Made by a program: the position numbers and the translations under genes
The notes under the pieces: model-generated
Told to the model about the DNA's origin: nothing
Databases searched by the model: none
What the model saw: only the letters and a program-made list of their open reading frames with translations
In this document: positions 2,830-21,543 of the stretch, one piece after another
Layout of the letters: each line of letters begins with the position of its first letter
Numbering within the stretch: position 1 is the first letter of the stretch
DNA from: Phanerodontia chrysosporium
Lineage: Eukaryota; Basidiomycota; Agaricomycetes; Polyporales; Phanerochaetaceae
DNA: 64,000 nt
Assembly: GCA_001910725.1 (NCBI GenBank)
Contig: MJGA01000007.1
Span: forward strand, 682,001 to 746,000
Reading direction: 5' to 3'

Positions 2830-3757
2830 ATGACCTCTCCGAGTAAGCCCTTCTCCCTAGCCGCACTAGGGAAACGACTGACAGCATTGCCAGCCGAGTT
2901 TGTCACGATACCGCCGTCCACGAACCTTTACCATTACACGCCAACGCGAGGCATCTGCTACCTCTTCGTCATCCTGTTCTGCATCACCACTGGTACGTCG
3001 CCGCTCCCGCCACACACAGCGGAAGCTGATTGGCCTTCAGCCGCACATGTGTTCTTTGCAGCACGACATCGTCTATGGTGGATATTCCCATCGATTGTCC
3101 TCGCTGGCGCAGGAGAGATCGTCGGCTGGATAGCACGCACAGCTTCCAGCTACGACCCGACCATTCGAAATGACTACATCATACAGTGCGTTTGCTCGTG
3201 CAACTATTATGCCTACGCTCGCTGACAGCCCGGGTGCAGGTCGACCTGCCTCGTGCTCGCACCAACGCCGTTGCTCGCCTCGATCTTTGTCATCTTTGGC
3301 CGTCTAACACAGTGTATCGGGAGCTCGTACGGCCGTCTCACGCCGCGTCTTTGTGCGTACCACCGTGACCATCACCCCGGATCCCATCTCATCCTCTGGC
3401 TTTAGATTCGAGGATATTCCTGACTTGTGTACGTCCCTTCGCGGCTTGCAGGATGCCTCTTGCTGACCTTGATCTGTTGTACAGGACATTATTGCACTCC
3501 TCATTCAAGGCTCTGGTGGCGGCATTGCCGCGTCGGCGAACAACACGTCCAGCCAAAAGTTGGTGCGTTGGCCTCGCCGACCTGACACTTCGCCAGAATA
3601 TTTACTCGTGTCTAGGGCAGCAACATTATGCTCGTCGGCATTATCTTCCAGACGGGTAAGCTCTCGCTGCACTGTCTCCTCTTTCTCTACTCACAATACC
3701 ACAGTTGCGATGGTCGTCTTCATTTTTCTTGCCGCTGAATTCTTCTGGCGCTACTTC
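2830..3757 (+). pseudogene. RTA1-like membrane protein, 5' half, disrupted by a 17.3-kb insertion
   Basis: Seven exons: 2830-2992, 3041-3185, 3240-3352, 3406-3428, 3485-3562, 3616-3655 and 3705-3757. They encode most of a seven-membrane-segment RTA1/Rsb1/Rtm1-type protein (motifs YHYTPTR, RLWWIFPSIVLAGAGEIVGW, LAPTPLLASIF, DIIALLIQGSGGGIA). Five internal exons (145, 113, 23, 78 and 40 nt) are the same size as in the intact paralogue at 22221-23629. Coding stops matching the family at RYF (3757), exactly where the transposon begins. Beyond it the frame runs through Arg/Pro-rich element DNA to a stop at 3925, so a transcript would encode a protein lacking the last membrane segments. The matching 3' half is at 21072-21543. 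Members are linked to lipid or drug resistance, but the biochemical activity is uncertain. Confidence 0.88.
3750..3757. repeat. target-site duplication, left copy (GCTACTTC)
   Basis: The 8-mer GCTACTTC occurs here and at 21064-21071, at the two edges of the insertion in the RTA1 gene. A preceding C also matches, so the repeat could be read as 9 bp. An 8-bp duplication is the length known for Zisupton/KDZ-type elements. Confidence 0.85.
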
Positions 3758-3784
3758 CAGAGAGTACAGAAAGGGAGAAGATCC
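3758..3784 (+). repeat. left terminal inverted repeat of the KDZ element
   Basis: It begins CAGAGAGTACAG and ends GAAGATCC. Compared with the reverse complement of 21037-21063 it matches at 19 of 27 positions without gaps, and GAAGATCC is perfect in both. Confidence 0.7.
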
Positions 3785-3798
3785 GCACGTGCGCCGCG

Positions 3799-3911
3799 TG
3801 CCGATCCGGATCCGAGTCCGGTCCTGAGCCCGAGCCGGGTCCGGGGCGGCCCCAGAGCGGGTCCGCCCAGTCCGACGCCAAGTCCGATCAGACCGACGCC
3901 CGCCCCGACGT
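3799..3911 (+). repeat. left subterminal GTCC-rich motif cluster
   Basis: About five GTCCG motifs, one of them inside CCGGTCCTGAG, lie within 110 bp of the left end. The right end carries four GGACCGG copies, the same motif inverted (CCGGTCC). Such inverted subterminal clusters are usual transposase binding regions; that role is inferred. Confidence 0.55.
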
Positions 3912-4120
3912 CCCTAGTTAGGTAGCTGTCGATTAGCGCCCAAGATTTGAGCGTCGAAGGCATGTCTTCGACGTCCTTGTGGCGTCGATGCGTCCCCATG
4001 CGTCCTAATATAGAAACTTTGCGTCCCGAAAAGGAATGAACTGAGTGCTGTGACCGCCTGCTTCGTGCGTGCTTCGACGCACCTTCACCGGCCTTCGTAG
4101 CGAGCCATCGAACATCGCCC

Positions 4121-4127
4121 GTATAAA
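4121..4127 (+). promoter_or_regulatory. putative TATA box of passenger gene A
   Basis: GTATAAAT lies about 135 bp upstream of the proposed start at 4260, followed by a long C/CT-rich tract (4134-4205) typical of fungal core promoters. Confidence 0.45.
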
Positions 4128-4259
4128 TGTGCTGCCCCCCTACCCAGCTCACGGCGCGCGCCCCCCCACACACCCCCACCCTCCCCGTCATCGCGTTCCC
4201 CCTCCCTGTTCCCCGCATTTGTACGCACCGTCTTTTCTATCTCGACCAGCTTCTCTCTC

Positions 4260-5462
4260 ATGTGTCTGCAACGACAGCAGCGACAGCGACGCCGCAGCTG
4301 GCACGTCCTTCTCGATCTCAACGACGTCCGCCAGTGTGAGTTCCCGGGGTGCACAGTCTTGTTGATCATCCCTGTGTTTTGTGAGGGCAAGGTTCACGAG
4401 AGTCACCGCGGCCGGTGGTATTTAGTTGTACGTTGCATTCTCACTATCGTACATTTTGCACTGATAATCGCATGCAGTGCCTTCTGCACTTCCAGCACTC
4501 GATAACGTGGATACCAAACTACGACCCTGTTCGATCTCCCGCCCCCTCCATCTACACGCGTCCTGCCTGGAACCAAGTCCAAGCTTGGGCAATTCTCAAG
4601 GAGATGGACCCGGATGCCTACCACCTCGGTTTGCGCGACCATGCCGACAAGGTCCCCGCGGCAGTCCTCGTCGCTGAAGGGCTTGCGCCTTCGCCGCCAA
4701 AGAAAAAGGGCCGCAAGCGCAAGGGGAAAGACGACGAAGATCTCCAGCCAAGCACTGAGCCAGCTCAGAAGAGACACCGCACGCGTTCGCAAGCGCGAGT
4801 TGAGCAAGAGCAGGCTGGACTTGAGGCCGCCGGACATGAGGTCGCCGCTGCAGCTGTGCAGGTCGCAGGTGAGTTGTTTCACTTACCCTCTTCACCCTGT
4901 TTTACGAGTCCTCGACAGCTCCAGTGACTGCGCGTCAGCGTGCACCCACGAAAACGAAGAACGCTCCCGCTGCTGCCACTCGTGCGCGCAACCGAACTAC
5001 TTCACAGGGGCGGGCAAAACGCCGACAAGTGCCTGCCGGCGCAGGCGTTGAGGGAAACAGTATGAGTTTTCACCCCTTCACAGCCGGACAGCGTTGCTCA
5101 CCGTTTACTGAGTGCTCCCAGATCAACCCGGTGCACCACCGCCAGCTGCCAAGAAGGTGTACAAGACCCAAATGCGCGACGATGGAGCAGATGCCGTATT
5201 CCAGGCAGTGTTCCGTACCCACCAGGAGGCGAAGCAGGCTGCTGAGGTCTACAAAAGATTGCGCGAGCGTGCAGATAGCAAGATCCGCATCCACGTCTGG
5301 GACACTGTCGGAACTGATGTGAGTGCGAAACGTTCTTTTCCCCTCCCTCGAGCGAGCTCACATGCTACTTTTAAGGGGAAGCCATGCACGTATGCCGTAG
5401 AAGCCCACGGAGTGCAGGACGGACAACGGATTCTCATCCTTGATGGTCCCCTGCTCGACCTG
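4260..5462 (+). pseudogene. KDZ passenger gene A, 5' part, interrupted by copia
   Basis: Five exons (4260-4427, 4478-4868, 4919-5059, 5122-5318, 5376-5462) joined by GT-AG introns of 50, 50, 62 and 57 nt. With the 3' exons at 11633-13041 and copia plus one ACCTG copy removed, the coding length is 2286 nt (761 aa) with no internal stop. The N-terminus has a Cys/His pattern (CEFPGC...CEGKVHESHRGRWYLVC) reminiscent of a degenerate GRF-type zinc ribbon. A strongly basic nuclear-type segment follows (PKKKGRKRKGK, further KR clusters), then a folded-looking region ending LILDGPLLDL. The protein looks nuclear and nucleic-acid-binding, but I do not recognise the family. The start at 4260 is the first ATG in the frame after the TATA-like box; an upstream exon is possible. 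Confidence 0.65.
5458..5462. repeat. copia target-site duplication, left (ACCTG)
   Basis: ACCTG directly precedes the 5' LTR and is repeated at 11628-11632 directly after the 3' LTR. Five bp is the normal duplication for Ty1/copia elements. Confidence 0.95.
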
Positions 5463-5751
5463 TGTCAGATCTTGGGCGTTTACCGTCCTGATATGGTAGG
5501 GCGCATCAGCGCCACCAAGCCCAGCGTTCCGCATATAGACACCTCTCTCGTAGCACTGTAGTACATGTGTCAGCACCTCGAATATATGGCCATTATGCTC
5601 ACTAATATGCAGTAGAATTATTCATCATCTTGTAAAGACGATGACTGTGTATTCTGGTCCAGTAAACCCGCTTACATACAGTAGTCCTAGACATGTATAT
5701 ATACCGGCTCTGTAGCACCAGAATAAATCAGTTCAGAGTACATTCTTCACA
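5463..5751 (+). repeat. copia 5' LTR (289 bp)
   Basis: It starts TGTCAGATCT and ends CATTCTTCACA. It matches the 3' LTR throughout except for one fewer C in the run near 5519. A TATATATA tract around 5696 and AATAAA near 5722 are candidate transcription signals. Confidence 0.95.
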
Positions 5752-5763
5752 GGTTATGAGCCC
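5752..5763 (+). promoter_or_regulatory. copia primer-binding site, initiator-tRNA half-molecule type
   Basis: GGTTATGAGCCC directly follows the LTR. It is complementary to the anticodon stem-loop of eukaryotic initiator tRNA-Met (GGGCUCAUAACC), not to a tRNA 3' end. This is the half-tRNA priming arrangement known from Drosophila copia. Confidence 0.75.
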
Positions 5764-6667
5764 CGCCCTCTAAAGGGCACTCTACCTCACTCAACTCCAA
5801 CTCCTTTCCATCTGCACACCCAACCTCTAGCGTAATTTCTCGAGGTTATCCCCTGTATTAGTGTAGCTGCCCAACACAGCGATCAGCACTAACACACGTC
5901 GTTTACAGCAGCCCCGACATAGGGCAAACGCGTCAGACAGTCCCTCGTAAGGACAGGCGCGGTAGTACACGGGCACATCACTTTACGATCTGGTTCGACG
6001 CTGCACTTCAGTGGGCGCGTCGTAGGGGCCTACTCCCCTTGGTAGCAGAAGATAGTCGTCGAGCTCTTAAACTCGATCTAGACGTCCTACCAAACTTGCG
6101 CAATAGTGGTGTTTCTTGGCCCCCGTATATCTAGCTGTAGATTGTAGCGTGTACCTAGTACAGGCTTGTCACATCCCACCCAACTCTATCCGCCTCTCGG
6201 CTATTTCGGCTAGCTGGGATCAGCGGCGCACTGAACAGTGTACACCCGTGCAGACTGGATCGAATCATCGCACCACATCTCTGGACTCCCACCGATCAGC
6301 TCGCAGGCGAATCACCTCGTGCTCGTACAGCGATCACACGCTATAGAAATACTGCACCCGCACCTCCTTCATCCGTCCTTCAATTCCGAACCAAACCCCG
6401 AGTCGTTCCCGTCTATCCACTCTCGTCAAAACTTGACGATCACCCATACGTCTATTACTACGACCTATCCGAACTCAACGAATTCGTCACCTTCGACCCG
6501 ACATATTCCATCGGTGATCACGAGAAACCGGGCAAATACGACTTCTTCGAGGACTTCTCCAAATCCTTCTATCTCCTTTTCGGTGCAGCAGATTCCTACG
6601 AGTACAACGAGCTCTACGTTTATCTTCGCCTCATTTACCATCACGAGCTTCCATACTTCTTCTAGTC
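5764..6667 (+). other. copia 5' leader, about 900 bp
   Basis: Noncoding leader between the primer site and the Gag-Pol start, expected to contain packaging signals. It holds only chance ORFs, including a Ser/Thr-rich one (6238-6741) that overlaps the polyprotein start in another frame. Confidence 0.6.
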
Positions 6668-9600
6668 ATGTCATCATCATCCTCAGACCCCTTCAAGGCC
6701 TCGGCCTCCTCGATTCCCATGCTCGACGGCACCAACTATAAAAAGTGGGCCGCGGCGATCCGCGCTTTTCTCCGGTACTCCGGCTGCTGGGCCCTCATTG
6801 AGGGTTACACGGCTCCCACGGCTGACACGCCCGCACCGGGTGTAAGCCGTCCCGCTGACTCGGATGCCACCGGTCAGGCAGCCTGGGACGAAAAGAATCA
6901 GAAAGCGATGGGTGTAATCGAGATGTATACCAAAGAGAACCTAAAGCACCTCATCGAAGACAAGCGCACTGCCCTCGACATGTGGAACACGCTCAAGTCT
7001 GAGTACGAGAAGCCAGGTGCCGTCGGCGCATTCGTCGCCTTCCAGGCCCTGTTTAACGCTCAGCTTGTCGATACGTCTCCACTCGGGCCGCAGCTTGACG
7101 CTCTTCACGAGGCCGCTAGTCAGGTTACCCTCGCCGGTATCGAGATCAAGGACCAGCTCCTCGCTCTCCTCATGGTCAATTGCCTGCCGAAGTCTTATCA
7201 GACGCTCGCCTCTACCATTCTTGCGGTACACAAGGACGTCAAGGATCTCAAGCCTAGCGACGTCAAGCCCAAGATCGTCGAGGAAGAGTCTCGCCGAATT
7301 GCCAATCGTACCCAGATCTCACGCGTCTCATCGGCTCCAAAGAAGCAAACCAAGCCGTGTGAGAAGTGCGGTCGGAACAATCACACGACCGAGCAGCATT
7401 GGGACAAGAAGCCTTCTACGGGCACTGGCAATTCCGGCAACGGCAACGGCAACAACCAGCAGGGGCAGCAGCAGGGTCAAGGGGGGAAAAGACGTGGGAA
7501 AGGCAAAGGAAATAGTAACGGACAGAATACCGCTCAGATCACAGTCGCACCGCTCGAAATTGTAAATGTACCGGATATGGCTAAGAGTTCCGAGGAATCC
7601 ATCTCTGTTTCTCTTTATGCCAACGGTGTGATCGGCGCGTCGACTGACTGGATGGTTGATTCAGGCTGTACCGCACATGTCACCAATCAGAAATCGGATT
7701 TCATATCGTACACAGAGTTCCGTACTCCTGGCGCGGCACACACTGCCGGCAAACGCCAAACGATTCCGATTCTGGGTGCAGGCACGGTCATACTTCACCA
7801 CCGGACCGATGACGGTCATAAGCGGTATCTTCTTCTCACAGAAGTTCTGTACGTTCCTGACGCAAATATGCGCTTCTTTGCTCCACGCATTCCCGTTCTG
7901 AGGGGCCATCACTGGGTGATCAAAGGGTCACGCATGACATTGATGGGAGATAACGGTGGAAAAGAGACAGTCCTCGCTTCTGCGCATCTGCGCGAGCTTG
8001 AGGGTCTCTATTTCATACGCGCGAATATATTGCACTCTCCACCACTACCACGGAAAGACACTCCGTTTGTTGTGGCAGCTATCGAGCCTTTCGATCTCTG
8101 GCATGAACGCTTCGGCCATGCCGGCAAGAAAGCTATTGAGCACTTGCCCGGCAATGTGAAAGGTGTGCCTAAAAAGCTCAAGGCACCAGCCGACTCGTCA
8201 CCGTGCGAGGGCTGTGAACTCGGCAAATCTCGCCGAGATCCCTTTCCGCCATCTGACTCGCGCGCCGAGCATCCTTTGGACTTGGTGCACATGGACCTTG
8301 TCGAGTATCCGTCACTCTCCATTGATGGGTACAAGTACGCGATGACTACCCTCGACGATCATTCCTCTTTCGGTGTCGCCTGGTACCTTAAACGGAAATC
8401 AGACGCCCTCTCGTGCTTTAAGCGGTACAAAGCTTGGGCCGAGACTCAGACCGAACGGAAGCTCAAATGCATCCGATCGGACCGAGGGGGGGAGTTCTTC
8501 AGCCGCGACTTCGACGAGTTCCTTGCAGAGCATGGCATTGAGCGCCAACAAAGCGTCGCCAGATCACCACAGCAAAACGGACGAGCGGAACGATGGCAGC
8601 AGACAATTGCCAATAAGGCTGAGGCTATGCGACATCATGCCGGACTCTCATCAGGGTTCTGGAAGCTTGCCTCCGAAGCCGCCGTTCACATCTACAATCG
8701 GCAACCGCTCCGACGTCTCAAGTGGAAGCCGCCCATTACCGCATGGGATGGCACAGTGCCGGACGTTTCATATTTCCGCGTATTTGGCTGTAAAGCCTAC
8801 GTACACATACACAAGGACGCACGCCAGAATAAGCTGCAGCCTAAGGCTAAAGTAATGGTGTTTGTCGGCTACGAACCTGGTTCAAAGGGTTACAGGTTCT
8901 GGGATAAAAGTAGCCGTTCCATCGTCGTGTCCCGCGATGTGACCTTCGATGAGAAGTCCTTCCCTAATAAGGAACCACAGGCTAGTCAAGCAGACGAACC
9001 TGATGATGCCGCACCTCCTTTCCGTAACCCAACGCCGGAACCGGACATTGATCCGGAACAAGACCTCCCTGACGTCTTACCCGATAAGGCACCGCATCCG
9101 CGCCCTGACAATGCGCTAAGCGATAGCGATAGTGACCTCGAAGATCTGTACCAAGATCCACCACCTAAGCCACAACCTCAACAGCACCCACCAGAACCAG
9201 TCCCACGGGCAGAGCCACAGCCGCCGCCCGTACAACCTCGTTATCCTCGATATCCTTCACCTCCCCGCATGGCACGTAGACGACAGCGCTCTTCTCCTTC
9301 ACCAGAGAGAGCACAGCAACGTCGCGGACATTCATCCCCACGTCGCGAGTTACGTCGCCCTGATACTCCAGAGAACCGCGAAGAGCACAGACGTGCCCGC
9401 GAGTGGCTCAGAGATCACGGCCCGTTCCAGCCGCAAGCGCCCGCTCCACCGCCTCCGGAACCCGTTCCCGATCATCCATACCAAAGACCACGGCGCCAGA
9501 ACGCCGGTCAGCGGAGAGTTCCGGATAATTCATATGGCGATGTTCCACCTACGGAAGCATGGCGGCAGCAGGAACGAGACATCAGACGTGATCAACGCGA

Positions 9601-11326
9601 AGCTAGACAGCGCGCTGAGGAGTACCAACAATGGCGTGAGTCTATTCCCATCCCCAGCGATGACTCTTCATCGTCGCATGGTGGATCGGATGCAGATGTA
9701 GAGACAGATCCCGATCACCCCATGAGCGGCACGCTCTCGGGTTCTTATCGCGAACTGCTCATGCATGCCACGCAAGTTGACCCTCAGACCTACAAGGAAG
9801 CGATGTCTAGACCTGATGCGAAGCAGTGGGAGATTGCAATGCTTGAGGAATTGAAATCTCACGAGGAAAACAAGACTTGGATTCTGGTTACACGACCGCG
9901 TAATCGACGGATCGTGAAATGCAAATGGGTGTTTGTCATCAAGGCTGACGGCCGCTACAAAGCACGCCTCGTGGCCAAAGGATTCACTCAGGTACAGGGT
10001 ATAGACTTTCAGGAAACCTTCTCTCCCGTCGCACGATATGAAGCTATACGCTTCTTGCTCGCACATGCCGCACTCGAAAATTGGGAAATCGAGGCAATGG
10101 ATATAAAAACGGCCTTCCTGTATGGCGAGCTCGACGAGGAGATCTACATGGAACAACCAGAAGGTTTCGTGGAGAAGGGAAAGGAGCACATGGTGTGCAA
10201 GCTGCAGAAGGCAATCTACGGCCTGAAGCAAGCCTCTCGCACCTGGAATCAGAAGTTACACCAAACTCTGATAGGCATTGGTTTCGAACGTACCCGGTCA
10301 GATGCCGGGGTATACGTCTACGAGCAGAAGAAGGGCCACATGATCCTTATCGTCTACGTCGACGATCTGCTCCCAATGGGTCCGAGCAAATCTGAGATTG
10401 ATCGCGTCAAGAAGGTTCTCGCAGACAAATTCCAAATGCGGGACCTCGGCCCGGCGGACACCTTCCTGGGCATGCGCATCACTCGTGATCGCTCGAAGCG
10501 GCAACTGGAACTGGATCAGCAGAACTACATCGAGCAGGTCCTCACACGCTTCCAGATGCACAATGCAAAGCCGCAAAAAACCCCACTGCCTGAAGGGTTA
10601 CACCTCGAGAAGGCAGAAGATGGCTACAAGGCCAACGCGACGCTACTACATCAGTACCAGACCATGATCGGTAGCTTGATCTATTGCATGATCGGGTCAC
10701 GGCCCGACATAGCATACGCCGTCACTCGTCTCTCCCAGTACATGTCCAATCCCACACCCACGCACGTTGAGCATGCGAAACATGTCTTGCGATACCTCCG
10801 TGCGACAAATGACTTCCGCATCCGTTTCCAGGGTTCCGGTCAATCGGGCCTGATTGGTTATTCGGATGCAGACTGGGGTGAGAATCGAGATAACCGACGA
10901 TCGACTACTGGCTACACGTTCCTCATGGCTGATGCCGCTGTCACATGGGTTTCCCGGATGCAGCGGACCGTAGCACGCTCCTCGACTGAAGCCGAATACA
11001 TGGCGCTTTCTGACGCATGTTCGGAGGTTGCCTGGCTGACGTCACTCCAACGCGAGATCGGATTCCCACAGAAGGGTCCGGTGCCCATGGTTTCAGACAA
11101 CCAAGGCGGAATTTTCCTCGCTATCAATCCCGCGCATGATCGTCGCCTCAAGCATGTGGACATTCGATATCACTTCATCCGCGAGTTCGTAGAGGACAAA
11201 CGCGTCGAGATAGTGTACATCTCCACCGACGACATGATCGCCGACATTCTCACCAAGCCGCTAGGTGCGAAGAAGCACGAGAAGTTCCGAAAGGCTCTCG
11301 GCCTCGTATCTTCCAAGGACTTGTAA
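6668..11326 (+). CDS. copia Gag-Pol polyprotein (1552 aa)
   Basis: A single open frame. Gag begins with a UBN2/DUF4219-like region (MLDGTNYKKWAAAIRAFL). A zinc knuckle at about residue 230 reads CEKCGRNNHTTEQH, with His in place of the usual last Cys. The aspartic protease site is DSG (about 328). The integrase has an HHCC zinc site (WHERFGH...CEGCELGK) and a D-D-E triad in HMDLV (about 541), SDRGGEF (about 604) and GRAERW (about 640). A Pro/Arg-rich linker precedes reverse transcriptase with YVDDL (about 1229). RNase H follows (YSDADW, SSTEAEYMAL, then VSDNQGG). All catalytic motifs are present with no stops, so the element looks autonomous. The stop codon lies 11 bp before the 3' LTR. Confidence 0.97.
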   Translation: MSSSSSDPFKASASSIPMLDGTNYKKWAAAIRAFLRYSGCWALIEGYTAPTADTPAPGVSRPADSDATGQAAWDEKNQKAMGVIEMYTKENLKHLIEDKRTALDMWNTLKSEYEKPGAVGAFVAFQALFNAQLVDTSPLGPQLDALHEAASQVTLAGIEIKDQLLALLMVNCLPKSYQTLASTILAVHKDVKDLKPSDVKPKIVEEESRRIANRTQISRVSSAPKKQTKPCEKCGRNNHTTEQHWDKKPSTGTGNSGNGNGNNQQGQQQGQGGKRRGKGKGNSNGQNTAQITVAPLEIVNVPDMAKSSEESISVSLYANGVIGASTDWMVDSGCTAHVTNQKSDFISYTEFRTPGAAHTAGKRQTIPILGAGTVILHHRTDDGHKRYLLLTEVLYVPDANMRFFAPRIPVLRGHHWVIKGSRMTLMGDNGGKETVLASAHLRELEGLYFIRANILHSPPLPRKDTPFVVAAIEPFDLWHERFGHAGKKAIEHLPGNVKGVPKKLKAPADSSPCEGCELGKSRRDPFPPSDSRAEHPLDLVHMDLVEYPSLSIDGYKYAMTTLDDHSSFGVAWYLKRKSDALSCFKRYKAWAETQTERKLKCIRSDRGGEFFSRDFDEFLAEHGIERQQSVARSPQQNGRAERWQQTIANKAEAMRHHAGLSSGFWKLASEAAVHIYNRQPLRRLKWKPPITAWDGTVPDVSYFRVFGCKAYVHIHKDARQNKLQPKAKVMVFVGYEPGSKGYRFWDKSSRSIVVSRDVTFDEKSFPNKEPQASQADEPDDAAPPFRNPTPEPDIDPEQDLPDVLPDKAPHPRPDNALSDSDSDLEDLYQDPPPKPQPQQHPPEPVPRAEPQPPPVQPRYPRYPSPPRMARRRQRSSPSPERAQQRRGHSSPRRELRRPDTPENREEHRRAREWLRDHGPFQPQAPAPPPPEPVPDHPYQRPRRQNAGQRRVPDNSYGDVPPTEAWRQQERDIRRDQREARQRAEEYQQWRESIPIPSDDSSSSHGGSDADVETDPDHPMSGTLSGSYRELLMHATQVDPQTYKEAMSRPDAKQWEIAMLEELKSHEENKTWILVTRPRNRRIVKCKWVFVIKADGRYKARLVAKGFTQVQGIDFQETFSPVARYEAIRFLLAHAALENWEIEAMDIKTAFLYGELDEEIYMEQPEGFVEKGKEHMVCKLQKAIYGLKQASRTWNQKLHQTLIGIGFERTRSDAGVYVYEQKKGHMILIVYVDDLLPMGPSKSEIDRVKKVLADKFQMRDLGPADTFLGMRITRDRSKRQLELDQQNYIEQVLTRFQMHNAKPQKTPLPEGLHLEKAEDGYKANATLLHQYQTMIGSLIYCMIGSRPDIAYAVTRLSQYMSNPTPTHVEHAKHVLRYLRATNDFRIRFQGSGQSGLIGYSDADWGENRDNRRSTTGYTFLMADAAVTWVSRMQRTVARSSTEAEYMALSDACSEVAWLTSLQREIGFPQKGPVPMVSDNQGGIFLAINPAHDRRLKHVDIRYHFIREFVEDKRVEIVYISTDDMIADILTKPLGAKKHEKFRKALGLVSSKDL

Positions 11327-11337
11327 ACGAGTGGGAG
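11327..11337 (+). promoter_or_regulatory. copia polypurine tract
   Basis: The purine-rich segment CGAGTGGGAG abuts the 3' LTR and would prime plus-strand DNA synthesis. It is short and begins right after the Gag-Pol stop codon. Confidence 0.6.
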
Positions 11338-11627
11338 TGTCAGATCTTGGGCGTTTACCGTCCTGATATGGTAGGGCGCATCAGCGCCACCAAGCCCCAG
11401 CGTTCCGCATATAGACACCTCTCTCGTAGCACTGTAGTACATGTGTCAGCACCTCGAATATATGGCCATTATGCTCACTAATATGCAGTAGAATTATTCA
11501 TCATCTTGTAAAGACGATGACTGTGTATTCTGGTCCAGTAAACCCGCTTACATACAGTAGTCCTAGACATGTATATATACCGGCTCTGTAGCACCAGAAT
11601 AAATCAGTTCAGAGTACATTCTTCACA
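11338..11627 (+). repeat. copia 3' LTR (290 bp)
   Basis: Same sequence as the 5' LTR apart from one extra C (CCCC near 11394-11398). It is followed by the ACCTG target duplication at 11628-11632. Confidence 0.95.
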
Positions 11628-11632
11628 ACCTG

Positions 11633-13041
11633 GTGCGGATACAGCGAGACCCATATGGCGGCGTGCAGTGCTTCGACTGCGAGTACGACGGATGGGTCAC
11701 CCAGCGGGTCGATTCTGTCATCAAGCTCATGAAGGATGAGTCCACTGTTCACCTCCTATCCCCGGGGAAGCACGCACCCGAGGAGTTTGGCACAATGCGA
11801 CTTGCTCTTCCAGAACCCGGTCCATTTGGGTCCAAACGCTCCATAGCCCGAGCCAAGGAGCAGCGCGCTCTCGAGCGACAGGCTGCGATGGCCGGTCTAC
11901 CGAGCCCCCGGAGCTTCGCGTCTTCGTCCGCGACCGGCCCTCCGAGTTCACCTATGCCGTCCTCGTCCCTGCCGTCGTCTGCGTTGTCCACACCGATACT
12001 CGCATCCCAAACCTTCAATAAAGGTAAAGGTGAGTGTGACTGCCATCTGCCGCAAACAGGTAGCTGACCAGTTACACCACAGGCAAGGTGGTTGACTTCA
12101 GGTCCCGTATATTCGCAGCGCCACCTACTGCTGGAGACAAAGGTGAGCACACTATTCAGGGCGTGCATACCAGTGAATTGAACAATTGAGCTACAGGCAA
12201 AGGGGTCGCCTTCCGGCCCCAGGCGTTCGTACCTCCCCCAACTGACGTGCAGCACCAGGGTGAGTACACCGTTTCCTGCTCGCCACCCGCGGGCTCACCT
12301 GCGGTCCAAGCGAGCAATGCGACTGTCAAGCAGGAGCCGGTCGACGCTACTGCAACAATAGGTGACGCAGATCCCGCCGCACGAGCCAACGACGCCCTCG
12401 CTCTCGAGGTCGGCTTGATTCCGAGCTGGAGGGCCACAGGTCCGGGAGCACGCCAGCGAGCCGGATCCGGACTCGACGATTTCTACGAGAAATGTGCCAT
12501 GTTAGACATGGGCCTCGATCCGTTCGCCTCCTCACCCATCTCGATATCTACGAGCTCACCTGTACCGTCCGACCACTCGTCGGACATCGAGATCCTTGAC
12601 GGCCCTCCGACTCCAGTCATCCGAGCCAAGCGCGAGCCAGATCCTGCGCTGAGTGTCCCGGCCCCCAGTACTAGCATCAGTGACGGCTCGCACGTCGCCG
12701 CACGCGAGGGCTTCCCAGACAGCTTTCACGTCTATGACCACGCGGAGCTGTTCGACCGTTATTGGCTGCGAAAGCACTTCCAGCACGGCGTTCATTACGA
12801 GGCTTTCAAGCGCATCTTCGGCTTCGACTTCCCGCAGAAGGGTGGGCGCAATGGCTGGTCGAAGTTCTACGAGCACAAGCAGTTCTTTCACGCCATCCCG
12901 CGCGAGATTATCGATGAGTTCGCCGCCCACGGATGCTCGGACGAGGGACTCTGGTCCAACCTCATCTCGACGCTAATCGACCGCGACCTCTATGACGAGA
13001 TCTCGGCACAGGCAAAGACACGCAACCGCACTAAGCAATAG
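11633..13041 (+). pseudogene. KDZ passenger gene A, 3' part
   Basis: Exons 11633-12029, 12083-12142 and 12197-13041, continuing in phase from 5462 once copia is removed (DGPLLDL joined to VRIQRDPYGG). The first exon has a CFDC pair. A Ser/Pro-rich linker follows, and the 60-nt micro-exon encodes a unit like the start of the next exon (GKVVDFRSRIFAAPPT versus GKGVAFRPQAFVPPPT). The C-terminal 110 residues are compact and charged (LFDRYWLRKHFQHGVHYEAFKRIFGFDFPQ...GWSKFYEHKQFF) and look like a folded domain, perhaps DNA-binding. Family not recognised. Without its 5' exons this half is probably not expressed as a functional protein, although the LTR could drive read-through transcripts. Confidence 0.65.
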
Positions 13042-13218
13042 GTGAGCTCTCCTGGTATGATATCATGTCGTAGGTCACTCACCTTCTATTCCCTTGCCAG
13101 CTGCCAGCTTGTCCGTTCGTTACCATTCTACGTCCCTCGTTTACATTTGTCACGAAAGTCTTGATTTGTATCGTACAATGTGCAGAATATTTTGTGTTAT
13201 ACATAATCGCAATGTGAA

Positions 13219-16069
13219 TTATTCCAGCAGTTTCATGGACGCGCTCTCGAGATTCGTGAAGAAAACCCGCTGCGAGGTGACTTCTGAACGCAAGGCCTTA
13301 CGCCAGCCCGAAGCATTCTTGAGCTCGAGGTCCGCGATGTTGCCTTCACGGGCCGCTTTCTCGAGCTTGTCGCGACGATGAACATACCATTCTTCGTTCT
13401 GGCGTGTCCAGTAACCGACGTTCATGCCGCTGTCCTTCCAGGTAGAGTCCTTCGGCCACCACGAACTCTCTGACGCGTCTGAAAGGCCGGAGTCTGATAC
13501 TGGTCAACGGGAAATCATGATTGGCAGAACGATTTGATTACATACCGTTGTAGACGCGGTACACGCCGCAGATGCAGTTCATGTCGTCCTCGGACAACGA
13601 GCAGGCCTCGTACGCGACATTCCCTACCGTGTACGACTTAACCTGACCGCAATCCTTAGGGTCTAGCAGCACACGGCCGGGGTCCAGCTCCTCGTAAGCC
13701 AAGCGCCACACGATTCCACCTCTTGCCAGTGCCGCCACAGCGTGCGGAAGGGTCAGGGTTGCCCGACGCCGCGCAAGATAAATTTTGTAGTCCGCGGCAC
13801 GCGGTTTGTAACCGATCTCGCGGAAGCCGAGCCCACTCCATCCCCCGATCGGCACGAGAGGTAAGGTGGCGCTCGCTGAGGGCGCGGCACGGTGCCAGAG
13901 CACGAGGAAGGGGATGCCGCGCTGCACTAGCTCAGCAACAATGTCCTCACGGGCTGCACCCCACTGCCTCCGGACGATTTCGAGTGCGGATACCGGGCTC
14001 TCCACAGCCAGAGTCCAAGCTGGAGGGGCCACAGAGCCCTGAGGCGCGGTGCCTATGAAGTAAATAGGCCTGAGGACGCGAGGACGTTCGCTCTCGCTCA
14101 TGCCGCTCACTCGACAAACGATTGTCCTCGCTGCTTGTCCGAGGGCGGCATGTCGGGGATTACTTGCTGCAACGTCCCAAAAATGCGGAGGCGTCCAACC
14201 AGGGTCACCAGCCTTGAGAACCGACTTGACAAAATCGACGACGACGGGCAGCTCTTTGCCTGTAAACGATCCGGAGTGCCAAAACTCGGAGAGGACTCGC
14301 AGAGCAAACTTCCTGTCCTTCTCTGTCTGCTCTGTGAAGGAATTGTACGGGAACTGAGGCCACAACCCGTAGCGACACTGAAGAATGAGGAGGAAGTCGT
14401 CGACGATGACAGCCTGCGTCATGTTTCCGACGTCCTCCTCCTCATTGATGTCGCCGAGCAAGCGTTCCGTGACAGCACTGAGAGCCTCTTGTGCCTTCTC
14501 TCGTTGTTGGCGTCCTGGGCTGGGCCGATTACCCTGACGGCGCGTGGGGCTTTCTCCAGCTCTGGGGGACAAGGACCTGCTACGGGCGCGACCCGACCGC
14601 TCGGGAAGCCGGCCTCTCTCTGGGAGAGGAGAGGCCGAACGTCTGCGAGCACCCTCGAAATGCGCATCGTCATCGACGTAGTCCTCGTCGTCGTCCTCAC
14701 GGAAGATGGACTCTGGAGCGGCGATGTCCCATCCTTCGTAATCGTCGTCGACCTTCGTGCCCGGGTCGAGGAGCAATGAGACATCCCACTCATTGATGAC
14801 GCTGTTGTGATGTCGGTGCTCTGGCTTAGTGTCCTTCCAGAGATCCTTGTACTTCTTGGGCCCAACGAACTGTCGCAGCCAGTAGCCGTGAACCTTGACC
14901 CAGTGAAATACCACAGCGCCCTTCTTCGTAGGGTATGGCTTCGCCCGTTCGACCGCCTCCCTCTCGAGTCGCTTCTTCTTCGCCTCCGGAGTTTCCTGTG
15001 CGATGACGCGAGCGGCCAAATCATCAAAACGCTTGATGAACTCGTGTAGAGTCTCTCCCCGCCGCTGACGCGACCCATGGTAAGGTTGGGGAGCCTTGGG
15101 GTCAACAGGCCGATCCGCGAGCTGCTGCATTGGCGGATCCGATGTCCAGCCCTGCGCAGGACTTGGGGGCGAAAACCAGGCGGAAGCAGACTCCTTCAAC
15201 GCACTCTCGCGTTCCTTCCCTTTCGAAGCCACCGTTTTCTCTATTTCGACTCGGAGAGGGGCATACATCTCGCGCGCAAACTGATGTTGCCGACACCACG
15301 TCTCTGGGTTTGCCCCGAAGTAGAACCACATCGGCACATTAGCACCGCAGCGCTCTTGGATCTTGCGACACTCGTCCAGCCACTGAGGTAGCCGTGGCAC
15401 CGCAAGATCAACAAAGCAGCCGATGCGCCGCCTCTGGCCTACGTGGAGGCCGATCCAGGAGGTGCCCAAAGCATCGACAGAGGCTTGGTCCATGTGGCCC
15501 AGTTTTGGTAGCTCTCGGAACCACTGGCCATGCTGGCCTGCTGGGACGACGTGGTGCAGGACGCAGAGCTCGTAACTCAGCAGTGCCGCGAGTGGGAGGA
15601 ACGCCGCGCGCGCAAAACCAACCGCGCTCTTAGCAGCCTTGCGAGTGGCGTATTTCTCACTAAAACCGTACGAAGACGGTCTGCGAGGCTCAGTTATGCC
15701 GAGGGGATATGTCAGCCGCGACCACCGGGCGAGGACGCTGCGAGAACGGACGAGGAAGAACTCCAGCTCACTCCACGCGTGGCAGACCGATTCAGGCAGG
15801 CCGTAAAGCGTACGGTTGTCAACGGTCTGTGACACCACTTGGGACCGGTGAGGCTGGAGGCGTGACAGCACGCAGTCGTCATAGGGCTCAGTCTCCGGGA
15901 TGAACATCGTATAGAAATGACTGTCGGTTGCCCATCGCAGCCGTGAGGCATCGTAAGGGGTGCGAAGGTAGTCGACACGGTCAGGGAACGGGGGCAGGAA
16001 ATCCGCTGAGGGCGATATGACGACCTCGTACGGAGCCTCCTTGCCCGTCACCCAAAACTTTTGCGACAT
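13219..16069 (-). CDS. KDZ passenger gene B, large hypothetical protein (934 aa)
   Basis: Two exons, 16069-13546 and 13499-13219, with a 46-nt GT-AG intron; the spliced frame is exact (2805 nt). No signal peptide or membrane segment is evident. The N-terminal 260 residues look globular (KFWVTGKEAPYEVVISPSADF). The middle carries a Lys/Glu-rich stretch and a long acidic-to-basic disordered linker (DDDEDYVDDD, then RSASPLPERGRLPERSGRARSRS). The C-terminal region contains ALARGGIVWRLAYE, and the last exon has WWPKDSTWKDSGMNVGYWT. These last two motifs resemble an expanded, uncharacterised Agaricomycete protein family, recognised from memory. It is intact inside the transposon, so it may act in the element's life cycle or be a captured host gene. 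No catalytic motif identified. Confidence 0.75.
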
Positions 16070-16226
16070 ATCTCTTAATATCGCCAGTCGTCAGATGTAA
16101 GTAGAGCGAACGAGGCAAACGAGACTCACAATAGTGTGTTCGTCGGCTGCTAACCGAGCAATCCGTGGAAAGCTGCGAAGACTGAGCTAGGCAACAGTCG
16201 TCGAGGCCTTGAGCGTTGCTGAGAGC

Positions 16227-16775
16227 CTGTGATAGTCACAGATCCCAACGAGGGAGGCGGAACGAGAGGGAGCGAGGGCTTGAACGTCGCTGAGACCTGT
16301 GATAGTCACAGTCCTCGGCGAGCACGCGTCTGCAGGTCCGGGCGTTGCTGAGAGCCTGTGATAGTCACAGTTCCCAACGAGGAGGCGGCGCGAGAGAGAG
16401 CGAGGGCGTTGCTGAACAGATCCCAACGAGGAGGCGGTACGAGAGGGAGCGAGGACTTGAACGTCGCTGAGACCCGTGATAGTCACAGTCCCCAACGAGC
16501 ACGCGTCTGCAGGTCCGGGCGTTGCTGAGAGCCTGTGATAGTCACAGTTCCCAACGAGGAGGCGGAACGAGAGAGAGCGAGGGCTTGAACGTCGCTGAGA
16601 CCTGTGATAGTCACAGTCCTCGGCGAGAAACGTCTTCTGGGTTGGACGACCGAGCTAGGCAGCAGTCGTCGGAGGGTTGCTCTCTTGAGGGTCGCTGAGA
16701 GCCCGTGATAGTCACAGGTTCTCGGTGTAGCGTGAGGTCGAGGGAGGGTGGCCGAGTACCCGTGATAGTCACAGG
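16227..16775. repeat. palindrome array 1: CTGTGATAGTCACAG, about 8 copies
   Basis: The 15-bp perfect inverted repeat CTGTGA-TAG-TCACAG recurs near 16227, 16297, 16356, 16533 and 16602. CCGTGATAGTCACAG variants occur near 16473, 16703 and 16760. Spacing is mostly 57-70 bp within longer degenerate tandem units (GAGGCGG, GAGAGCGAGG, CGTTGCTGAGA). It lies about 160-700 bp upstream of passenger gene B and downstream of the transposase gene. ORFs predicted here are made of repeat and are not genes. Confidence 0.9.
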
Positions 16776-17059
16776 TCCACGGTGAGGGAGGGTGTTGAGG
16801 TGGCGGTGGAAGGAGGGAGGACGGCGCCGACGGTCGCGACAGAGCAACAGCGTGACAAAACGCGGGGAACTTGGCGTTACCGCAATGTTGTCACGCTCAC
16901 GAGGGCGGAGCGCTGAGCCTCGTGCGCTAAGGCAGTATTGCCACCGAGGGCGGGACGCCACAAGGGTCCTGTGATGGGCGCCGGCGGGATGTTCGCCTTC
17001 GCACTCCTCTCTCCTGCCCCCGTCTCCCGCTCTCCATCTCGACCCCACAGAACACTGCG

Positions 17060-17662
17060 AGTACGCTGCGAGACTATCTCGCAGGGTGCGCTGCGTTCTG
17101 AGCACTGCAGAGACTATCTCGCAGTGCTCATGTCGGGGCTCTGTGCAGACTATCTCGCAGGGCACCGCGTCGCGACGGCCGCTTCTCGCAACGTTCACCA
17201 CCCCGACGAAGCGCAACAAGGTGTCTCCTGCTGGTCCTCGACGGCTACACTCCTTCGCACTCCTCTCTCCTGCCCCCGTCTCCCGCCCTCCATCTCGACC
17301 CCAGCGTGCGCTGCGTTCTGAGCACTGCAGAGACTATCTCGCAGTGCTCATGCCGGGGCTCTGTGCAGACTATCTCGCAGGGCACCGCGTCGCGACGGCC
17401 GCTCCTCGCAACGTTCACCACCCCGACGAAGCGCAACAAGGTGTCTCCTGCTGGTCCTCGACGGCTACACCCTGCGTAGACTGTCTCGCAGGGTGCATCG
17501 CGTTGTGAACGCTGCAGAGACTATCTCGCAGCGCTCATGAATCGCGGCACCATATCCACCCACGTCTCCCGCGTGTTCGTTGGTCTGATCTCGGCCTCAC
17601 TCTGCGTAGACTGTCTCGCAGGATGTACTGCGTCGTGAATGCCGCAGAGACTATCTCGCAGC
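17060..17662. repeat. palindrome array 2: CTGCGAGACTATCTCGCAG, about 9 copies
   Basis: The best copy (about 17065-17084) is a perfect inverted repeat with 8-bp arms around CTA. Most others read CTGCAGAGACTATCTCGCAG or have GACTGTCTC at the centre. Read on the minus strand the core is GATAGTC, as in array 1, but with different arms (CTGCGA/TCGCAG instead of CTGT/ACAG). A unit of roughly 220-250 bp (about 16996-17246 and 17253-17470) is duplicated within it. Confidence 0.88.
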
Positions 17663-17750
17663 GTCCGTCACCACTATCCAATATCTTCACATTCGCTACA
17701 TCCCGACTCTATAAACATGGTGCGTACTGATATATATGTCAACAACGAGA

Positions 17751-20125
17751 CTATGCCCACGTGCCCACAAACAGACCCTCCTTCTGCAACTTCTCAAGCT
17801 GCGCGACATTCTTGAGGACAATCATCTCGTCGAGGAAGAAATTGTACCTATCCACGCGCATCTCCCGCAGCATAGAATGATAGTTGGCAAGCCAGACGTT
17901 CGTCTGCTCGGCAATAGAGGTGTTGAAGAACCACCCGCCTTCCTTCTGCAACTCCTCGAACTTTGCAGGGTTGCAATGCTCTTGACAATAAACGTCCGAC
18001 GCCTTGTGCTTACTGGTGAAGTGGAAGACATCCACCGTTAGACCAATGTCATCCCAGAAACTATCGCCAAGAGTGTCGACATGTCGCCGAAGGTGGCAAT
18101 TGTTGTCGAAGATGACGTGGTTCGGGCGATACGAGCAACCGGCGTACGTGCGACGAATAAACTCCTAAAGCTACCCAGTCAGCGCTGTTCGCGTAAGTTA
18201 CAATTCGAATTTCACTCACAGCAACGCTGCTGACCGATTCTGCATGATAGAACGTGGCCCGAGCGATGATTACGCCGCACGGCGCAACAATAACTTGCTC
18301 GTTGTGCGTGCGCTTTCGACCGAATTGAGCACGCAACTTGTTCGTGCGCGAGGGCGCAGGCTCCAAACCCTCAGTCTGTCGCGCTGTGAGGACGACTGGG
18401 GGTATGATATTCTGCGAAAAAACGCTACATGAGCAAGATTATATCGCTTTGAATAGGCCACTCACCATCGCCAGCCCACGCTCGTCGAGTTCGAAATCCT
18501 CCTCCGCGTACGCCTCATCGTCAATCGTAATCTGCTGTTCTTCCTCCCCCTCGTCCCCGTCTTCCTCCTCGTGCTCGCCGTTACTGTCTGTGGCAGCATC
18601 TTCCGGGGCGACAATAATGTTTGCTGCACCCTGCCGCGCATGGGCTAGCCGGGTCTGTTCTAGACTATTCACAATTTGAAAGCGGGCGGTCTTGCGCAGG
18701 TCATACAATTTCTCTGCGCTGATGTGGGAGGCCTGTGCGCAAACTCGACTGCCAGGTGCGACGCGCTCCGAACAACCGATAACGGCGCAGATACTCGTTC
18801 ATCCGATGTGGGCGGGACAATACCGGTCCTTTTGCTTGACGAGCTCGTTGAGGCAATTCGGCTCTGAACAACAGGGGTGTCCGAGCGTAACACCATCGAC
18901 GACGACGCAAGAAGTCCGCTCTACCAAGCCCTCCATCAGACCGAGCTGAGGTTCAGGCAATAATAACCCACCTATTGAGCCGTCTGGATTGGCGAAAATG
19001 CGCACACACCTCGAGCAGTAGTGTGAGTGGTTTGGAAGACCATTGACCCGGTAGAAAGCGTTGCGGAACCTGACTGCAGCGGAAAAACGATCCCTCTGGA
19101 GGCCGTCGTGTGGTACGCGAAGGGTTGAGCCTTGTTCCTCGTGAAAGCGTAGAAGGGACAAGAGAATGAACGCGTCCCACACATGCTCCACGCGAAGCTT
19201 GGCTTGGACGGTCCAAGAGTTGGGGAACGGGACTCCGCGCGGATGGTCGGCCAGACACTTGTTGTATACACTCGCACAGCTAGTCGCAGATTCCCTAGAA
19301 GAAATGGAATTAATATGAGGACAGAACCAGTGCGACGAGCACGTACCAGGCCGTCAACATATCATTAACCCACAAATTCGCGAGGCGGCGCTCGACGAAA
19401 TGATGCTCGCCGATTTGTATATACTCGCCTTGACGTTCGGGCTTGTAGAACGTGCGATAATATGTGCGAGCAGTCGGTATAGAGGGGTTCTCAACCTCTC
19501 CATGAATGGAGAAGTTGTAGTGATAGTTCGTGCGGCATCCTGGAAGGTGAGGGTCTCAAACACTTCCTAACTCTGATGAACACTTACTATAACAATTCAG
19601 ATGGACGGACGTCGCGGGGATTGCGCCGCGATCGAGTGTGAAAACGACGACCTCCCGCTTTTGAGCGTCAGTCAACCGAGTGTCCCTTGGACAATCGCGG
19701 TTCTGACACCAGTGGTGAGGAGGATAGAGGGACAGTCCCGCTTCGGATGGTGAGATAGGTTAGGAAAAAATAGTAATCGACATACGAATGCTAAAAGCTG
19801 GCCCTCTGGCCTGTAGTGCATCACGAGGATCCTGCCCCAGCGACTGCGTATACTCGCTGTTCCATGCGAGATCCTTGAAAATGCGCCAGGATAATACGAC
19901 GTCGTCGAGAGAAAGGTCAAGAGAGACTGACAACACCGTTACTACATACGAGGGCAATGATGCGGGTGCGCTGACAGCGGATTCATACGCCCCTAGGGAC
20001 AGTATGATGTCGTCCTTGACGAGGGCGGCCTGTCGAATGAATCGAAACATCTGCGACATAGTGACCCGTGCGAGGAAATCCGGGTAAGCCGCGACGCAGT
20101 TGAGAACGTCGATGAATTTATCCAT
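17751..20125 (-). CDS. KDZ transposase (CxC5/CxC6 type), one in-frame TGA
   Basis: Six exons: 20125-19786, 19740-19588, 19539-19347, 19294-18466, 18411-18220 and 18164-17751, with introns of 45-55 nt; total 2121 nt (706 aa). The N-terminus matches the CxC5 cysteine cluster (LYPPHHWCQNRDCPR, CRTNYHYNF, GEHHFVERRLANLW). A CxC6-type cluster follows (CSRCVRIF, GHPCCSEPNCLNELVKQKDRYCPAH, then SICAVIGCSERVAPGSRVC). The transposase region has VAPCGVIIARATFYHAES, VIFDNNCHLRRHV, VDVFHFTSKHKASD and the conserved FNTSIAEQTNVWLANYH. A TGA at 18799-18801 interrupts CPAHIG/TSIC between two conserved segments in one frame. CGA to TGA at a CpG would explain it. If real it would truncate the protein before the transposase core. 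Other copies or read-through could still act. Confidence 0.88.
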
Positions 20126-20267
20126 GATTGAGGGTGCGCCAGGGAATCAGGGTGTCGCAGGCTTGACACAAAGGACAAGTACTCACTCCGGAGGCCTTTT
20201 ATACCTCCTGTGCGCCTTACCGTTGCGCGACGCCTGCGATCCCGGTTCAGGCTCCTCGCACGTCGCC

Positions 20268-20690
20268 CAGCGTGAGTTGCGCACCCTCTCTCAGTTCACC
20301 CGCACGTCGAGTTACCCCCTACAGCGCATCCGCGCTGCCCCGTGGTGAGTTGCTCACCCTCTCTCAGTCCACCCGCACGTCGAGTTACTCCCTACAGCGC
20401 ATCCGCGCTCTCCCGTGGCGAGTTGCGCACCCTCTCTCAGTTCACCCGCACGTCGCGTTACCCCCTACAGCGCATCCGCGCTGCCCCGTGGTGAGTTGCT
20501 CACCCTCTCTCAGTCCACCCGCACGTCGAGTTACTCCCTACAGCGCATCCGCGCTCTCCCGTGGCGAGTTGCGCACTCTCTCTCAGTTCACCCGCACGTC
20601 GCGTTACCCCCTACAGCGCATCCGCGCTGCCCCGTGGTGAGTTGCTCACCCTCTCTCAGTCCACCCGCACGTCGCACACGTCCCTACGGA
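20268..20690. repeat. array 3: 73-bp tandem repeat, about 6 units in an alternating dimer
   Basis: Units begin GAGTTGCGCACCCTCTCTCA or GTGAGTTGCTCACCCTCTCT and alternate A-B-A-B-A-B, giving a 146-bp higher-order period. Type B units carry the short palindrome GTGAG-TTG-CTCAC. The array lies between the transposase start (20125) and the right end of the element, where promoter and subterminal binding sites would be expected. Confidence 0.88.
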
Positions 20691-20984
20691 GCATTCACAA
20701 TGACCCGTGGTTTATCCTCTCATTGGCCTGTGCCGGACATTCTACGACAACGACTCGGCATATCCGTACATACCCTCCGCACGTACATACCCTCCGCACC
20801 GACAACGCGCCGACGCCCGCCCCTCCTTCCCCATTGGGCCGCTCCCGCGTGCGCGATCACAGTCCTCGCGCCCAACTACCGGGCCATCCCGTTTGGGAGC
20901 TTGGGCGTCTGCCACATTCGTTCAATCACAGACGCTCCGATCTCAATTCCATTACTTTTTACGGTACATTGCGCCCCTATCTAG

Positions 20985-21030
20985 GACCGGTCTAGGACCG
21001 GCCCAGGACCGGCCCGGAACGGACCGGATT
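20985..21030. repeat. right subterminal GGACCGG cluster
   Basis: Four direct copies of GGACCGG/GGACCGGC occur in about 45 bp just inside the right terminal repeat. They are inverted relative to the CCGGTCC motif at the left end. Confidence 0.7.
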
Positions 21031-21036
21031 TTCACA

Positions 21037-21063
21037 GGATCTTCCCATTTCCTGGACGTTCTC
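21037..21063 (-). repeat. right terminal inverted repeat of the KDZ element
   Basis: The reverse complement begins GAGAACGTCCAG and ends GGGAAGATCC, aligning without gaps to 3758-3784 (19 of 27 positions). Confidence 0.7.
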
Positions 21064-21071
21064 GCTACTTC
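21064..21071. repeat. target-site duplication, right copy (GCTACTTC)
   Basis: Matches 3750-3757. The RTA1 reading frame resumes directly after it with AAG GAC CAG. Confidence 0.85.
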
Positions 21072-21543
21072 AAGGACCAGCCCGCGCGGCCGGACGACAG
21101 CTATTATAACCCCTCGCGGTTAGGACGCATACCGCTCAGCAAGAACCTGAAGATGATGGTCCTCGGGCTTTGCCTTGCCATGCTCTTTCTCCTTATCCGG
21201 TGAGTCCCTCCCGCGCCGATGTTCTCCTAGCCGTGCCCTGACGCTGCATACAGTGCCTTCTACCGTGTGTTCGAGCTGGCCGACGGGTGGAACGGCAGGA
21301 TCGTCTCGACGCAGTGGCTGTTCAGTAAGTTTGAGGCTCTAGTCTATGCTTCCGTACCCCTAGGTCTGACGGTGCCCCACAGACTTGTTTGACGGCGCGA
21401 TGATCGTCCTCACGATGTACACGTTGAACGTCTTCCACCCTGGCCGCCTGCTCCCCAGCGACTCGCAGGACGCTACGTCAGAGTCGGAGAAGCCGGTGGT
21501 AACGTATGGGAATGCGGAGGTGATTCCCATGAGGGATGTTTGA
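21072..21543 (+). pseudogene. RTA1-like membrane protein, 3' half, separated from its 5' exons
   Basis: Exons 21072-21199, 21254-21324 and 21383-21543. They encode the last membrane segments and tail (QPARPDDSYYNPSR; MMVLGLCLAMLFLLIR; FYRVFELADGWNGRIVSTQW; LFDGAMIVLTMYTLNVFHPG) and end at TGA 21541-21543. The 71-nt exon equals the corresponding exon of the intact paralogue. With 2830-3757 it forms one 975-nt, 324-aa frame. All splice sites are intact. On its own it has no promoter or start of its own, so it is a stranded gene end rather than a gene. Confidence 0.88.

Follow-up and report, generated by a model that had tools for sequence, protein, structure and literature searches.

The window, a 64,000-nucleotide stretch of the Phanerodontia chrysosporium genome (C113:682001-746000; 39.0 Mb in 145 contigs), contains an RTA1-family gene split by what is very probably a DNA transposon of the CxC5/CxC6 lineage. 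The left part of the gene (2830..3757, plus strand) retains its exons and frame, the final host codon ending at 3757. The right part (21072..21543, plus strand) consists of exons of 128, 71 and 161 nt in an open frame. Between them lies the element (3758..21063), 17,306 bp long including a nested copia retrotransposon. It is bordered by two plus-strand copies of the 8-bp target-site duplication GCTACTTC, at 3750..3757 and 21064..21071. The terminal inverted repeats are 27 bp long. The left one (3758..3784, plus strand) starts CAGAGAGT, the right one (21037..21063) starts GAGAACGT on the minus strand, and they match at 19 of 27 positions, a level equalled by 3 of 400,000 random 27-mer pairs from the window. 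The split gene, the 17.3-kb insertion, the duplication and the inverted ends described by the first-pass annotation of this DNA thus all stand. The element carries three genes, here called A, B and C, and arrays of palindromes; gene C encodes the candidate transposase.

The interrupted host gene

The host family is RTA1, as shown by a PF04479 match at E 2.5e-42 in the database protein P0081, which covers the left part of the gene and 55 residues of the element. An intact RTA1 paralogue adjoins the interrupted gene (22221-23629). The left-half exons of 145, 113, 23, 78 and 40 nt and the 71-nt exon of the right half have the same sizes in this paralogue, in agreement with the first-pass annotation, and the exon hit by the element measures 53+128 = 181 nt versus 166 nt. 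Read apart, both halves are open and in phase, with 615 nt on the left and 128+71+161 = 360 nt on the right. These lengths add up to the 975-nt frame claimed earlier, which probably overstates the coding length. A segment of 51 nt (2843-2893), which has splice signals, is missing from P0081; without this probable first intron 924 nt are left to code. The paralogue also has an intron there. Compared with its database version, P0085, the paralogue differs by two residues near the C-terminus, which suggests that another strain or nucleus has also been sequenced.

P0081 is a 270-aa protein found in three contigs of a source labelled lgn, the longest being 1,309 nt. It equals the predicted protein from the MTSP start to the end, with 188 RTA1 residues followed by 55 residues encoded by element DNA in the RTA1 frame (3758..3925, plus strand) and the stop at 3923-3925. 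Since the introns are missing from P0081, the interrupted allele appears to be transcribed and spliced. Its product would now be cut after 188 RTA1 residues and carry the element-coded tail, with presumable loss of function.

Among named organisms, the interrupted protein is most similar to proteins of Phanerochaete sordida (85%) and P. carnosa (77%), as would be expected of a Phanerochaete-like white-rot fungus. These two Phanerochaete proteins, P0082 and P0083, whose orthology is judged from identity, are full-length and run straight across the insertion site, which makes an origin of the insertion within this lineage probable. The first-pass annotation had supposed that an empty allele may still exist. 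None was found in the assembly, where 57-bp flanks of either junction match the window alone (a second nucleus could hold one), nor among the database proteins found.

Other copies and natural empty sites

DNA searches with both element ends identified three further places in the genome that carry both ends. End patterns derived from these copies, at up to three mismatches, gave five left and four right matches genome-wide, and reversed control patterns gave none. The matches that pair are those of the window and of three other copies: C65:397024-407525 with the duplication ATAATCTC, the outer element of C83:57032-81256 with GCTGAAGC, and C73:181716-201513 with GTTCGAGT. All four are flanked by a perfect 8-bp duplication, and they were found by similarity and end patterns with the duplication disregarded. 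The fifth left match, C58:1516687, is a left end alone, without a partner in the right-end list. A scan of eight stretches for paired ends gave one pair in C2 (C2:694705-709826, duplication GGTGAATT) and three in C83; it missed C73, whose right end TGTTCTC falls outside the motif used.

The earlier claim that the boundaries are fixed to the base is borne out. The further copies that it proposed to look for exist, and the paired copies end at the same bases, each with its own 8-bp duplication, rather than elsewhere. The left ends of all seven two-ended copies start CAGARAG and the right ends, read inwards, start GAGAAC; left and right ends therefore differ at the first and sixth base in every copy. 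Over 27 bases the two ends of a copy agree at 15 to 19 positions. Exact left-end 14-mers occur 16 times genome-wide (control 2), five of them in the copies described here and eleven elsewhere. Right-end matches with at most one mismatch number 33 (control 22), and the six exact ones are all in described copies.

Two natural empty sites come from a comparison of C83 and C73, whose outer elements are near-identical (about 99% where aligned). First, C83 has 19,926 bp of extra DNA with GCGTTTCT on both sides, at a place where C73 has a single GCGTTTCT. This insert is an element with genes A, B and C in inverted orientation and a gypsy-like retrotransposon inside it. Second, C83 has an extra 572 bp (78826-79397) with GAGGAAAG on both sides, where C73 has a single GAGGAAAG. 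The smaller insert is a miniature element whose ends are of the same type. C73 was also considered as a derivative of the C83 element by deletion, a reading dropped because the 8-bp duplication shows that the inner element inserted. Of genes A, B and C the outer C83 and C73 elements themselves have none; they contain a Pif1-like helicase frame (C83:79592-80740). There are three nested insertions in C83 and one, gypsy-like, in C73; a retrotransposon frame with chromo and dUTPase domains lies at C83:75352-76617 (L013:1352-2617).

The Ty1/copia retrotransposon nested in the window element (5463..11627, plus strand) is 6,165 bp long. Its long terminal repeats are 99.65% identical, differing by one gap, and it is flanked by its own 5-bp duplication ACCTG (5458-5462 and 11628-11632) within gene A. 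It is missing from copy C65, and the element proper is about 11.1 kb once it is excluded. Between the window and C65 there are 101 differences in 10,500 aligned positions (634 gap columns aside). Ninety-two are transitions, 65 of those at CpG. The copia element would have broken gene A after the split from C65. A recent insertion into the RTA1 gene, as proposed in the first-pass annotation from the stop-free halves, is plausible at this level of difference from C65. The right subterminal region of the window element contains 73-bp tandem repeats (20199..20782, plus strand), of which alignment suggests fewer copies in C65.

Genes of the element and the candidate transposase

Gene C (17750..20125, minus strand) has six exons with GT..AG introns and 706 codons, with a stop at codon 394. 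It encodes the CxC5 and CxC6 domains (PF18718 and PF18721, at E 2e-35 and 4e-21), with no others at E 0.5. A confident structure model of a gene C homologue, P0001, resembles integrase cores, with an RNase H-like core fold. The residues D337, D577 and E644 (numbering of P0001) are invariant in 21 of 21 sequences. Across 54 sequences E644 is invariant and both aspartates are conserved in at least 90%, and the window copy retains all three. Gene C is therefore taken as a predicted DDE transposase with putative activity. Given the integrase-like model and these three conserved residues, CxC5/CxC6 elements would seem to be a kind of DNA transposon of their own.

Gene A lies on the plus strand in two parts, a 5' part (4260..5462) and a 3' part past the nested retrotransposon (11633..13041). 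The 5' part encodes a Cys-containing N-terminus and a basic middle, and gene A has homologues in C65, C83 and C79. Gene B (13219..16066, minus strand) has a long first exon, an 842-residue frame of which the last few residues are probably intronic, and a short last exon. No Pfam family matched it. It has 24 matches in the genome, with identities from 100% down to 24%. Gene B is under purifying selection (dN/dS 0.40, 0.29, 0.16 and 0.23 in four pairs, the third with saturated silent sites).

Upstream of gene B are arrays of palindromes (16227..17661) with the 7-bp core GATAGTC, eight on the plus strand and then seven on the minus strand. The arms differ between the two groups, for example CTGT/ACAG around plus cores and CTGCGA/TCGCAG around minus cores, and many are imperfect beside the core. 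Counting both strands, the 17.3-kb element contains GATAGTC at 16 places, all but one within the arrays, versus two in the 42.9 kb of the window to the right of the element. Other arrays upstream of gene B are found at C83:64557-65287, C79:155278-156081 and C135:66950-67976. Those of the C83/C79 family have the same layout with the core GAGATTC and different arms. Since the layout is common and the cores are family-specific, the arrays may be binding sites that co-evolve with an element-coded protein.

All three genes are found together in the window, C65, C83 and C79, and as relics in C13 and C90. In C135 gene B and its upstream arrays were found, and A and C were not, in a protein search of 19 kb. 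Gene order and orientation in C83 are unlike those in the window; the three genes have thus been kept together through rearrangement. Genes A and B and the palindrome arrays belong to the element.

Proposed insertion mechanism and competing explanations

The most probable explanation by a wide measure is that a DNA transposon of the CxC5/CxC6 lineage inserted into an exon of the RTA1-family gene and duplicated 8 bp of the target, with gene C as the transposase. The ends, the duplications, the two empty sites of relatives, the gene content and the read-through protein are direct observations; the mechanism is a proposal. The predicted RNase H-like core of the gene C protein, with its D, D and E, would cut both element ends. 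It would then join these to the two strands of the target at points separated by 8 bp, and the duplication would result when host repair closed the gaps. Genes A and B might be element-borne helpers, and the arrays before gene B might be bound by an element-coded protein that controls gene B.

A number of points weigh against this explanation. Gene C has one in-frame stop here and one at another place in C65, so an intact transposase is present in neither copy. A plain Foldseek search with the model gave no match below E 0.001 (best 0.41), and the VIA list is a re-examination of Foldseek's own candidates. Solved structures searched with the gene C family profile gave no match up to E 1. The predicted fold of gene B is uninformative (pLDDT 37). 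Database relatives among the matches listed number at least 78 for gene C and at least two for gene B, and some members may therefore do without B. With three more two-ended copies included the 8-bp duplication is perfect in 7 of 7, three of these seven duplications having been found partly by requiring identity and only the first four being free of that selection. Five of the eight scanned stretches (C79, C135, C13, C90 and C64) showed no paired ends, C79 having a left end.

The first alternative is that the element is an ordinary KDZ (Kyakuja, Dileera or Zisupton) transposon, the CxC5/CxC6 protein being a very diverged KDZ transposase. Pfam calls CxC5 and CxC6 "associated with KDZ transposases", and 8-bp duplications are also made by Zisupton and Dileera (PMC12730594). 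By eye, the [YF]DxxC, FH...KH...C and E motifs of gene C are ordered as in the KDZ proteins of this genome. Against this, the Pfam KDZ domain (PF18758) has 17 matches genome-wide, none of them in the window element, C65, C83 or C73, and it is listed for none of 54 gene C relatives at E 0.01. Comparison of the gene C profile with five KDZ fragments by hhalign was not significant, with a probability of 6.3 in the wrong region and 0.2 for the core alone, no better than 30 column shuffles that reached 3.5. The first-pass label of "KDZ element" is thus not upheld, and an ordinary KDZ transposon is unlikely, if still a serious contender. The element would work like a DDE transposon and is filed as CxC5/CxC6, KDZ-like in its motif order and in the length of its duplication.

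About equally unlikely is an alternative in which the window element had no working transposase and another family member mobilised it in trans. The in-frame stop in gene C fits such a history, as does the fact that the C73, outer C83 and 572-bp elements, which themselves lack A, B and C, moved and made duplications. The stop may, on the other hand, postdate the insertion: the 65 of 92 window-C65 transitions at CpG are as expected of post-insertion decay.

A copia retrotransposon that carried or caused the insertion, as suggested for MSH4 of the oyster mushroom, is very improbable. A copia element does sit within the window element, and CxC5/CxC6 regions very often adjoin Copia in Pleurotus (PMC7641404). 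Against this reading, the copia here is delimited by terminal repeats of its own and by a separate 5-bp duplication within gene A. Copy C65, which lacks it, shares the ends of the window element and is flanked by an 8-bp duplication, and no copia would fit in the 572-bp element. Least credible of all is an assembly chimera, for which no point in favour was found beyond the evidence coming from a single assembly, since the duplication at the junctions is perfect, the intron-free P0081, from another source whose contigs do not exceed 1,309 nt, spans the left junction and has the expected residues there, and the same structure recurs in six other two-ended copies.

Comparison with known systems

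The window element shares features with several KDZ groups. Zisupton and Dileera likewise make 8-bp duplications (Kojima 2025, PMC12730594), a length also made by hAT and so not diagnostic. They are recognised by KDZ transposases, whereas the KDZ core was not detected here. Kyakuja, like the present element, includes agaricomycete elements starting CA. Its TET-bearing families have 7-bp duplications and CA..TG ends without inverted repeats (PMC12730594), in contrast to the 8 bp and the 19/27 inverted ends found here, and no TET/JBP domain was found among the ten element frames scanned. The KDZ1-KDZ3 elements of Cryptococcus, which were shown moving, resemble the present element in size (about 9-11 kb) and in inserting into a gene. 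Their duplications are 8 bp for KDZ1 and 4-8 bp for KDZ2 and KDZ3, and they differ in having 139-241-bp inverted repeats and KDZ and CxC1 domains (PMC12810828).

No report of a CxC5/CxC6 protein as a transposase, or of the ends of such elements, was found in the open-access literature, and the accessible parts of PMC9674265 and PMC12568894 add nothing on these ends. CxC5/CxC6 proteins among the matches listed come from dozens of mushroom species and are annotated at most as "associated with KDZ". With the ends, duplications, empty sites and predicted fold described here, it becomes possible to annotate such copies as complete transposons and to test whether they move.

The closest known case is the CxC5/CxC6 insert in poMSH4 of sporeless Pleurotus ostreatus, which had no KDZ transposon near it in the published account and for which Copia was suggested (PMC7641404). 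It resembles the present element in having a CxC5/CxC6 gene of comparable length (739 aa), in being multicopy, in breaking a host gene and in its internal repeats. It differs in its length of 6,792 bp and in the one such gene described; the main text of that paper does not use the terms "inverted repeat" or "target site", whereas the element in the window has defined ends, 8-bp duplications and the additional genes A and B. It may be, at somewhat less than even chances, that CxC5/CxC6 elements form a superfamily of their own across mushrooms. Such a superfamily would be characterised by a zinc cluster inserted directly after the first aspartate of an integrase-like DDE core, asymmetric ends (CAGARAG left, GAGAAC right) and 8-bp duplications, some members having two helper genes and palindrome arrays whose 7-bp core varies with the proteins by family, and the commercial sporeless oyster-mushroom allele would be one such insertion. 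This offers a new reading of an insertion that its authors linked to Copia (PMC7641404), and the cause of a commercially used sporeless mutation becomes directly checkable.
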